The notes under the pieces: generated by a model
What the model was told of the DNA's origin: nothing
The model's database searches: none
Seen by the model: only the letters and a program-made list of their open reading frames with translations
Assembly (NCBI GenBank): GCA_009760855.2
Contig: WPIO01000014.1
Coordinates: 186,001 to 250,000 of the forward strand
Length of the DNA: 64,000 bases
Reading direction: 5' to 3'
From: Cristatella mucedo
Taxonomy: Eukaryota; Bryozoa; Phylactolaemata; Cristatellidae
Made by a program: the position numbers and the translations under genes
Part shown: positions 755 to 15,629 of the stretch, piece by piece
Layout of the letters: each line of letters starts with the position of its first letter
Position numbering within the stretch: the first letter of the stretch is position 1

Positions 755-985
755 GTGACATCCACGGACAGTACTACGATCTGTTGCGGCTTTTTGAGTA
801 TGGTGGTTTTCCTCCGGAAAGCAACTACCTGTTCCTTGGCGATTACGTAGACAGGGGGAAGCAGTCAATGGAAACCATATGCTTGCTGCTGTCCTACAAG
901 ATCAAGTACCCGGAGAATTTCTTCTTGCTTCGTGGGAACCACGAGTGTGCCAGCATCAACCGCATCTACGGTTTCTATGACGAAT
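755..985 (+). CDS. PPP1C: PP1 exon A (catalytic core, residues about 63-140)
   Basis: The acceptor is TCAG at 751-754 and the donor is gtaggt at 986. The exon starts with the last two bases of the Gly codon of GDIHG and ends on the first base of a Cys codon. It supplies metal ligands in GDIHG and GDYVDRG and the catalytic His in GNHE. The donor at 986 is chosen over AG|gt at 990 because only it joins in frame to the next exon as C-K-R-R-Y. Confidence 0.95.
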
Positions 986-3900
986 GTAGGTTGCTGATGT
1001 TTGCTTTTGCATGTGTTATGTGCACATTTGTGACGTCCATCGGCTAAAACTATGTAGTATGCAAAACTTGGGAAGTGGGGTAATCGTTTTATATCCACGT
1101 CCATTAGTTTCCTCTTCTGGTGCACGCCAAATGCAGTCGTGTGTCTCGTGGTCGCCTTTCAGTGGCATTACCCTCCCTACTGCCAAGTGGGTCGTGTCGC
1201 CTAGTCCAAAAGCCATAGCTTCCAGAATTCCAATCTGATGCATGATATTTGCCTGTCGATGAGCTGTGTTGATGTATTGAGGGGCTAGGGGCAAATTAGC
1301 AAGGCACACCCTGACACTAGACCACAAAAAGATCTCTCTTGGAGCAGCCATTCTAGTCGTTGGACATTTGCTGTTCACTATACGTTTGCAGCGCGGTTTC
1401 AGTATGCTTCTGCAAGCAGAAGCGTTGCTGCATTTTCGAAGTTGGCATTACTGCTTTGAAAGGAATGCCGATCTGCACACTTCGGTGTTCGTGGGTTGCC
1501 TTAGCTGCTAAGGGGACTGCTTGACATTGTCATTGCAAGGTGGCACACTGAATAAGCAAAACTGGCAGCCCACTCCTGCAGCCGTGTCACATGCCACTGC
1601 TGTGACGCTTGCAATCTGGCTGTGAACAGCTCCTGCCAAGATGGCCCGTGGCTTGCTTCTTCCTGGTGCTTAAGCAAGAGCTGCCTTGCTCGGCTAATGT
1701 GTGGTATTGGTGAGCCTGCTGTAATGCTTTCGTTCACGTGTGTTTCAGTGTGACTGCCTATGCATTAGGATCACTGTGCTAACACAATTTGTCTGTTTCC
1801 CCTCATCCTATGCGAATGCTCTTGGTTTGTGTACCCAGGTAAACGGCGCTACAACATTAAGATATGGAAGACGTTTACTGACTGCTTTAATTGCCTGCCG
1901 ATTGCTGCTATCATCGATGAGAAAATCTTCTGCTGCCACGGAGGTTGGTTTGCCTACTGCTTATTTCCTGCTGCTTATCTATTGTTGGTCAATTTGGCTT
2001 CCTTCCAGTTGAGCATGTCCTACATTCTCTGTGATACTGCAGTAATACTGTAGTAATACTCCATAATGTACACTTGCTGCTATGTTTTGGGTATAGTGTT
2101 TCTTTGGTTGAGGCTCCTATCGTTTTATAGCTGTGTACTTGCTATCTTGTGCGCCGGCGGTGCCTGCAAATCTTAGCATCGTTAATCCATCTGTGTGAAC
2201 ATGCAAAGCCTAGCGATTTGTTTTTTCATAATGTGGGTAAAATGAGACGGTATTATTGACCATGCTGATAGACACTCGAAAATTTGAGACATGTATTGGA
2301 AAACCCTTCATTATAAGGCCAAGCAAGTCCTTGTAGCTTGGTGGATTTTCTGACGGGATTACATTAGCACGTGATTGGTATTTCGTGCAACATGCATCGC
2401 TGGTGACCATTGTGTAGAGGCATGCAATATCCTCACTGAGCACCAGATGCAAATCTGTGGCACTGGTTCAGTTTGATGTGCTTGCCTACTAGCATTGGGA
2501 TGGTCCAGAGATTTGTATAACTACCTCGTGACTGAGCCGTTTTGCCATCGGCTGATCCAGAGAGTCTTTACACGTGGAAATGGAATTGCCTAGCCTGTTC
2601 GTAAGGCACCTTGGTGGTCACCGTTAGCAAGTCGTGGACGTTAGTGGTCAGCATTGGTGTCTCATTTGTCTTGGTTTGTGCTAAGTGGTGAGTGATCTCT
2701 TTTATCTGTATTGTGTACTGCTGGCATGTTTGCTGTGCTTTTGTCCCCTATGTGTTGCAGCAATTTGCAATTGCAATTCTTGCCTCTTCAGGCTTGCGCT
2801 CGACATTCTGATTCACCAGATTTGTTTGCTTCTTGGCGATGCATTTGATTTGCAACCATTTGGCTGTCGAATTCATATCTCATAGCAGCACCAGTTGTTG
2901 TTCATCGGTCTAGCATGCTTGTGGCGTGGCACAACTGCTGGATATATTGAATGGTTGATAGTGTGTGCTCGGGCTGTTTAAGCATTTTGCACGAGTTGTG
3001 TCGATGGAATGCCGTTTTCAACCCCCAGCAGTCCTTTAGCCCCCCCCCCCCATGATTGCTTGCCCCAAACAAGGCCTTAGTTTAGCCCTTTTCCACTTGG
3101 TAATGGGTATGCCAGTGGGATTGTCCTGTAGAGATGTTAGCAGTACTCCTCTAGGCATATTGCTTGGGTCCGTGGTAGTTGAGATTAGTATTGCCCAGGC
3201 TGTAGGTACAAAATACTGTGTTTTACAGGTACTGTCAACCTCTTTGGATCCTAACTGCTAAGCTTTACTGCTGAATTTTTCGAAAAATTGTCCTATGCAT
3301 AAGCGTTGAATACCTAAACTTATGTCGAGTGAGGTTTCTCGGTCTATTAACTTTAGTTGTATGTCCTGATGCGCCTACAATTAGAGTTTATTGGACCATG
3401 AAAACCCTACCTGAGTTTAGTGGTCTTCTTGTTCTTTGCTGCCATCTACACTGCTTTACTCTTTACCTCACAGGATTTGGCTGCCCATCGTTCAGCAACT
3501 TGCAGAAGTATACTGCCCTCTTCTGTGCGTGGATCATAGATATCAATAAATTATATGTTCCATTCCTACCCTTAAAGACCGTTGGCGACAGAAACTTGAA
3601 CTCTGCAAGTCCTAGACTGTGGAACTCGCTTCAACAATTTTTATGCAACGACAACTACTCTCCTGCTGCCGACTATGGCTCATCCTTTTCAGCGGTCCTG
3701 AGCTGCTACTTCCATGCTACTCACTATCTCAACTGCTCTCCTGACTCTGCTATGCTTTCCACTTTCTCTTTGTTGCGTGAGATGAAGTCTGTTGGCTACC
3801 GAATGCGTACCGAAAGCTGCTTAGGCTGTGAGTGCGCTATACAAAACTCTCCTTCGTAACATCCACATAGTCTTTGTGGAGTTACAGACGGAGATACACT

Positions 3901-15500: not shown

Positions 15501-15629
15501 GTATATTTCTAGATACTTAAGCCGGCGGTGAAAAACAAGTCAGGTTTTGGAACAGTTACCTCAACTACAATGATCAACAAGCCGCCTGTAGCCAGGAACA
15601 ACAATGCCCGTGACAGGGGCAAGTACTAG
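12284..15629 (+). CDS. Second PP1 3' half: alternative exon set or partial tandem duplicate
   Basis: Three exons (12284-12507, 12599-12733, 15513-15629) repeat the last three exons of the upstream PP1 gene in the same order, lengths and phases. The product is diverged in the first exon (about 15 of 75 residues, mostly conservative) but nearly identical in the second (1 of 45), although about half of that exon's codons differ silently. Catalytic NDRGVSF, RAHQ and NYCGEFDN and the LMCSF pocket are intact. The tail differs: it ends [16 protein letters not shown] and lacks the TPPR phosphosite. I see no copy of the upstream exons in 10560-12283, so the set probably splices to the exon ending at 1943. 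An AATAAA at 15775 follows the stop. A non-functional partial duplicate is possible, but the silent-substitution pattern argues against it. Confidence 0.8.
12599..12733 (+). CDS. PP1 exon D', distal copy
   Basis: The acceptor is TTACAG and the donor is gtgggc; the preceding intron is 91 bp (95 bp in the proximal copy). The protein differs from exon D at a single site (AMMSV to AIMSV), while roughly 24 codons differ silently, counted by eye. Confidence 0.92.
12991..13390 (-). mobile_element. LINE family 1 fragment
   Basis: The minus-strand tail (AAGAACATTAGTTTTCTTAA, ATACAACAATTATTG) lies at 12991-13060. AATGTAGTCAAATCAGGGGAT and further matches to the family 1 3' ORF region follow. It is strongly diverged. 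Confidence 0.45.
13499..13649. repeat. (GA)n microsatellite
   Basis: About 150 bp of GA dinucleotides with one interruption (CAAC) near 13593. It creates an artefactual Arg-Glu reading frame. Confidence 0.98.
13835..13965 (+). repeat. LINE family 1 3' tail
   Basis: CATGCTACCACTAACCATTC, GCAAATGTGAAGTGCC, AGAGATTGAGTCCTCTGAGA and a TTATTATT end match the other family 1 tails. Confidence 0.7.
13985..14400 (-). mobile_element. Diverged LINE-like fragment
   Basis: The minus frame reads [10 protein letters not shown] and [14 protein letters not shown], the pattern seen at the C-terminal end of L2-like LINE ORFs (SxxxWNSLP...FKKxLKTHLF). A possible tail GTTATACAA begins the element at its left. 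The assignment is by pattern only. Confidence 0.35.
14401..15512. other. Intron between distal PP1 exons D' and E'
   Basis: No recognised element. The acceptor of E' closes it. Confidence 0.5.
15513..15629 (+). CDS. PP1 exon E', distal copy (divergent tail)
   Basis: After the acceptor TTTCTAG this 39-codon exon encodes [14 protein letters not shown], then a tail without the TPPR motif, ending RDRGKY and TAG. ILKPA and GFGT align with exon E, which identifies it. Loss of the phosphosite would remove CDK control of this isoform, if it is made. Confidence 0.85.
   Translation: MLKPAVKNKSGFGTVTSTTMINKPPVARNNNARDRGKY

Follow-up and report, generated by a model that had tools for sequence, protein, structure and literature searches.

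In vertebrate GNAO1, the final exon pair is locally duplicated (7.1-8.1 and 7.2-8.2) and used in a mutually exclusive manner (PMC5896119). Of 236 human events in which tandem-duplicated exons substitute for each other, 77 swap C-terminal regions, with residue changes that are mostly conservative (PMC9741552). Mutually exclusive 3' regions are also described for Drosophila pip, with tandem homologous clusters and 3' untranslated regions, and for PGRP-LC, where competing RNA structures have been reported (PMC9013439). Here, we analyzed a window, meaning the whole stretch of 64,000 nucleotides at positions 186001-250000 of contig WPIO01000014.1 (C55 in the following) in the 572 Mb, 688-contig assembly of the bryozoan Cristatella mucedo, and found a gene for the catalytic subunit of protein phosphatase 1 (PP1) whose last three coding exons stand twice in tandem. 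PP1 is among the most conserved eukaryotic enzymes, and its specificity is thought to be due to regulatory subunits and a few paralogous genes. Splicing alters the C-terminal end of mammalian PP1gamma1 and PP1gamma2, a change of the tail only that involves no duplicated core. The locus studied here is probably a single PP1 gene with two alternative 3' exon sets that share the metal-binding 5' half of the enzyme.

A preliminary description of this DNA had noted that exons C, D and E occur twice in tandem while A and B occur once, and re-reading of coordinates and frames bore this out, with exons 1 and 2 added as further single exons upstream. The parts of the gene are the following (window positions unless given on the contig):

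C55:180081-180135, exon 1 (MSDADKLNIDSVIARLLE), 5' of the window, shared 5' part of PP1
C55:183840-183971, exon 2, 5' of the window, shared 5' part of PP1
755-985, + strand, exon A, the third coding exon, shared; codes for GDIHG, GDYVDRG and GNHE; one of four PP1-type copies among the assembly matches listed
1839-1943, + strand, exon B, shared; its last base is the first of the split Gly175 codon (phase 1, ..CCHGG); one of four PP1-type copies among the assembly matches listed
4670-4893, + strand, proximal exon C, encoding residues 176-249 with R221 and H248 (human numbering)
4989-5123, + strand, proximal exon D, encoding residues 250-294 with Y272
10440-10559, + strand, exon E of the proximal set; 39-residue tail with PxTPP (as PLTPP) and stop
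11706-11711, + strand, AATAAA, the single AATAAA or ATTAAA between the stop of E and exon C'
12284-12507, + strand, distal exon C', unlike C at 15 of its 74 residues
12599-12733, + strand, distal exon D', unlike D at 1 of its 45 residues, with 23 silent codon differences
15513-15629, + strand, exon E' of the distal set; 38-residue tail without Ser/Thr-Pro, and stop
15775-15780, + strand, AATAAA, beginning 146 bases 3' of the distal stop

The two sets have equal phases and matching core exons, of 224 nt in the case of C and C' and 135 nt in that of D and D', while the tail exons measure 120 nt (E) and 117 nt (E'). All eight window exons are preceded by AG, GT follows A, B, C, D, C' and D', and E and E' both terminate in TAG (stops at 10559 and 15629), so that each 3' set has its own stop as well as its own AATAAA; a further AATAAA lies at 16354, and ATTAAA is absent from 10401-16500. 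Exon B ends in ...GGA G, and the split Gly175 is completed by either C (GC) or C' (GT). With phase 0 at the ends of C and C' and at the starts of D, D', E and E', the reading frame is kept in four 3' combinations; it is lost in joins of B to D, C to C' and D to C'. Joined to the one common 5' part, the proximal set gives a product of 333 amino acids and the distal set one of 332, of which the distal set encodes 157 residues (47%, the split Gly175 not counted). The completion of glycine by either C or C' and the keeping of splice sites, catalytic residues and a stop in both sets thus stand as first described; the switched share, put at 55% before the two additional 5' exons outside the window were taken into account, comes down to 157/332. 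The donor of exon B, GAG|gttggt, is the branch point for both 3' sets and departs from the usual gtaagt-like form; the corresponding donor of a paralog on another contig (C507) reads GAG|gtatgg. A weak donor at this place would suit a regulated splice choice, which is only suggestive.

Both encoded proteins are recognizable as PP1. The core motifs and residues GDxHG, GDxVDRG, GNHE, HGG, R221, H248 and Y272 are all present, the proximal protein differs from human PP1alpha at 18 positions over residues 1-294, and the distal protein aligns without gaps over residues 1-327 to PP1alpha structure chains (1fjm_A and 4g9j_A). In our tree, the window proximal set, C507 and the distal set fall outside a clade of hsB, P0114, P0004, C497 and C687 (support 95/94). 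Judged by this placement and by an exon C that is unsplit, unlike in C497 and C687, the gene is a PP1 catalytic subunit (PPP1C) of the alpha/gamma rather than the beta type. Against this type counts that joining the distal set to the beta rows lowers the log-likelihood by 21.3 and is not formally rejected (approximately unbiased test, p-AU 0.062; 5 divergent rows of 56 were omitted from the placement tests). Joining the distal set to the window proximal set plus C507 is neither supported nor rejected (p-AU 0.078), and we therefore make no claim as to the PP1 copy from which the distal set derives.

The residues D64, H66, D92, N124 and H173, which we take to be the metal-binding ones, all lie in the shared residues 1-175, and R221, H248 and Y272, presumably residues of the catalytic core, are retained in both versions of C and D. 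Because of these shared ligands and kept residues, both forms are predicted phosphatases, and both products should be active. The tails differ more visibly: PxTPP is present in E and in C507 but absent from E', which has no Ser/Thr-Pro at all. In human PP1, the threonine of the conserved PxTPP motif is phosphorylated by cyclin-dependent kinases (CDKs), and this modification has been associated with inhibition in cells; in vitro, however, PP1 activity was unaltered by the phosphomimic T320E. Residues 317-322 become visible in the ASPP2-bound structure, in which the ASPP2 SH3 domain binds the tail (PMC7984433). By this comparison, the distal form would escape both CDK phosphorylation and SH3 binding of the ASPP type, and a switch between the sets may alter regulation, i.e., the choice of regulators and kinases, more than catalysis. 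In two papers on PP1 complexes, E184, M190 and R187 are not mentioned, and R188, a residue unchanged here, appears a single time in one of the two.

Evidence for long selection on the distal set comes from the pattern of its differences. Exons D and D' differ by 23 silent codon changes and one amino acid replacement over 45 codons, close to the approximately 24 and one initially estimated, and C and C' by 32 silent and 15 replacement changes over 74 codons. Over C and D together, 55 of 119 codons are silently different and 16 of 119 residues are changed, 15 of them in C' and one in D', giving differences per silent site (pS) of 0.82 and per replacement site (pN) of 0.087 (dN 0.09), with silent sites saturated. 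This silent distance is about that between the window gene and C507 (60 silent and no replacement differences to the proximal C and D, pS 0.78), so that the age of the duplication is not measurable. DNA repeats of at least 60 nt between the two sets stop 3 nt beyond the exon edges (4667-4896 with 12281-12510 and 4986-5126 with 12596-12736), none of those listed lie in introns, and E/E' fall below the list. Thirteen of the 16 distal replacement residues also occur among the 128 PP1-like proteins among the matches listed, whereas 195L and 200I are absent from these and 214I lies outside the six commonest letters there.

Codon models point the same way. Neutral evolution of the distal branch is rejected with a twofold log-likelihood difference (2dlnL) of 113 in a three-sequence star model, in which both sets are given equal age because they sit in one locus, and still with 2dlnL 9.9 in a five-sequence model with all branch lengths free, a model that hit its parameter bounds. 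Some parameters of the three-sequence model were at their bounds as well, which makes its omega values rough, and only large likelihood differences are used here. The long purifying selection that had been suspected on both sets is thus upheld.

Among the best 20 assembly matches listed, for which only the best candidates were scored and PP1-type matches rank first after sorting, we found four PP1-type copies each of exon A (on C55, C507, C497 and C687; 87-98% identity) and exon B (84-97% identity), while the remaining 12 of the 20 listed A/B matches are at most 67% identical and were taken as other phosphatases. Five C/D sets appear among the matches listed, i.e., the two of the window and one each on C507, C497 and C687; exon C is split in two in C497 and C687 and unsplit in both window sets and C507. 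A separate 5' half for the distal set was found neither in 10560-12283, where no A- or B-like match appears at E up to 1, nor among the assembly matches listed, and the same holds for a separate full-length gene that could provide its 5' exons, a finding that would have spoken against the preliminary description. A TGA stands in frame at 12262, eight codons 5' of C', with no in-frame ATG between the two. With the frame of C' closed in this way and no other recognizable 5' half at hand, the distal set either borrows exons 1, 2, A and B or is unused.

The window gene and C507 are two alpha/gamma-type PP1 genes with the same seven-exon layout and an identical 119-residue C+D part despite 60 silent differences in 119 codons, and C687 holds a second beta-like PP1 that carries Gly to Asn in NYCGEF and Cys to Ser in NHECAS, with no tail exon within 1.2 kb past exon D.

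If the distal set borrows the common 5' exons, the mode of expression that we infer would involve a splice choice, expression of both forms and a regulatory consequence. The primary transcript would start 5' of the window, and exon B would be spliced either to C and on to D and E, with cleavage near 11.7 kb, or across a 10.3-kb intron to C' and on to D' and E', with cleavage near 15.8 kb. Both products would share residues 1-175 and differ at 16 core positions plus the tail. The most likely origin would be an ancient duplication in tandem, either of the 3' part or of a whole gene whose 5' half was lost later. A bolder version, which we put forward only tentatively and hold to be somewhat less probable than its opposite, is that one gene might yield a cell-cycle-inhibitable and a cell-cycle-blind PP1, the splice choice replacing 47% of the protein by an anciently diverged, functional version that lacks PxTPP. 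A single PP1 gene would then cover a job given to separate genes in other animals. If real, an isoform pair that has its first half in common and second halves that evolved independently could reveal which surface residues and which tail motif set the choice of regulator and whether the enzyme tolerates losing the CDK site or benefits from it, and it would be a clean case of a half-duplicated gene retained by splicing rather than as a full paralog.

Several results weigh against two alternative 3' sets in current use. The distal set evolves faster than the proximal set and C507 (2dlnL 27), and models in which the last 1%, 2% or 5% of its history is neutral fit better than a single constant rate and trail the free model by 3.2, 2.4 and 4.2 log units, so that a recent loss of function of the distal set would be compatible with them. 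Pairing between the start of intron B and the stretch before C' gave no signal, with 93 of 100 shuffles pairing equally well or better; the corresponding counts were 6 of 100 for the start of intron B with the stretch before C, and 15 of 100 for the stretches before C and C'. RNA pairing as the switch between the sets is thus unsupported by the shuffle test. Finally, no relative with the same distal set stood out in the best 120 of 7992 scored proteins, a sample that includes no close relative. The proximal tail also lacks a close match there (best match just 71% identity), so the missing relatives of the distal set say little about it, and nothing on its age.

The 12 top-scoring of these proteins (P0001-P0012) all map onto PP1alpha, and most of them contain part of PP1 twice, which raises their scores. 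Apart from P0008 and P0010, which were mapped only, their sequences were read as well, together with P0025 and P0033. In P0001, P0002, P0004, P0005 and P0006, the protein's own segments are repeated with no difference by eye, which looks like gene-model or assembly duplication; P0011 combines PP1 with a PP2A-like portion, and P0012 has a short repeated piece. Two diverged copies each are found in P0003, P0007 and P0009. The last of these (431 amino acids, from a contig of 1415 bases) comprises a whole PP1 (1-294) and, continuing in one frame, a second 3' half that has diverged (281-426, corresponding to PP1alpha 154-298). Among the proteins examined it comes nearest to the present arrangement. 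With 57.5% identity to PP1alpha, it is not closely related to the distal set, and it may represent a parallel case, two neighbors read as one, or a chimeric contig.

Among the alternatives, the one that survives best is a relic: a complete second PP1 gene once stood here in tandem, its 5' half was lost recently, and the distal set is what is left of it, now out of use. The selection signal could date from the time when that gene was whole, and the missing 5' half, the faster evolution of the distal set and the small likelihood cost of a neutral last 1-5% would all fit. Several points speak against it: C', D' and E' have the right lengths and all five splice sites with no stop or indel, a neutral last 10%, 20% or 50% of the distal history costs 7.6, 15.3 and 34.6 log units relative to the free model, and most of the replaced residues are shared with other PP1-like proteins. 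We consider such a relic unlikely, but it is the main rival reading.

Somewhat less probable still is that the main switch concerns the tail or part of the core, as in C-D-E' or C-D'-E', rather than the full block. The exon phases allow all four 3' combinations, but C' and D' have long been under selection, and splicing from B to C' must therefore matter if the distal set is used at all. The mutually exclusive isoforms originally proposed are accordingly supported insofar as selection, phase, separate poly(A) signals and the lack of a separate 5' half speak for them; strict exclusivity is not, with these hybrids in frame.

It is quite improbable that the distal set is expressed separately, from its own promoter or 5' exon, as a protein that is different, shorter or begun in another way. 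The 1.7 kb between the proximal stop and C' would offer space, and alternative first exons are invisible from sequence, but the TGA and the missing ATG upstream of C' as well as the lack of any A/B-like match in this interval argue against it, and without residues 1-175 there would be no metal-binding residues, which would make the kept R221, H248 and Y272 hard to explain. An assembly artefact, in which a second PP1 gene was collapsed or misjoined and lost its 5' half, can hardly account for the locus: a dropped stretch would be invisible from the assembly alone, but the locus is well within a contig of 7.25 Mb, at about 198 kb, the matches listed from the 688 contigs include no orphan A or B exon of the PP1 type, and saturated silent sites speak against a haplotig. 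An assembly duplicate, and with it the assembly error that the preliminary description had allowed for, is very unlikely because silent-site saturation is not expected between alleles or haplotigs, and the saturated sites together with the conserved protein rule out chance similarity.

Beyond the PP1 exons, the PP1 introns hold dispersed repeat copies at 1-66, 3820-3885 and 7970-8035 and also at 3601-3853 and 7717-7958 (70-89% alike). An open frame at 41322-41891 (+ strand) codes for a C-terminal portion of GPP34 (Golgi phosphoprotein 3; E 3.7e-22) and is likely a GOLPH3 exon, and reverse-transcriptase pieces lie at 29263-29835 (- strand; RVT_1, LINE-like, E 1.2e-16) and 58679-59452 (- strand; RVT_2, copia-like, E 1e-25). 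Elsewhere in the assembly, partial COX1-like matches (L043-L047, on C166, C83, C549 and C299) occur outside C688, which contains the full COX1; they may be mitochondrial DNA copied into the nuclear genome, or else mitochondrial fragments left unplaced. The COX1 of C688 shows 95% identity to one protein (P0129) and no more than 82% to any from a named species; gastropods and cephalopods make up most of the best 120 matches, which also include nemerteans, chitons, annelids and a phoronid, and on this basis the animal reads as a lophotrochozoan.

In the literature searched, which leaves most subscription journals outside, we found no report of a PP1 with alternative 3' exon sets, and the word "phosphatase" appears nowhere in the main text of PMC9741552. 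The PP1 locus resembles GNAO1 in having tandem last coding exons of a signalling enzyme on a common 5' part; the duplicated unit of GNAO1 comprises two exons and is reported to be kept in all major vertebrate clades (PMC5896119), whereas that of PP1 comprises three and is known from the sequence of one species. With the human C-terminal class it shares homologous 3' coding regions, which in human are swapped by splicing, but human terminal events often hit exposed or disordered ends, and in PP1 nearly half of a catalytic protein is concerned (PMC9741552). The likeness to pip and PGRP-LC lies in alternative 3' regions, used there one per transcript, while, unlike in PGRP-LC, a simple pairing test at the PP1 locus gave no sign of competing RNA structures. 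Given GNAO1 and the 77 of 236 human events, the arrangement is less unusual than it was first taken to be: the architecture is already known from GNAO1 and other C-terminal tandem-exon events, and what is new here, within the literature searched, is PP1 as the enzyme.

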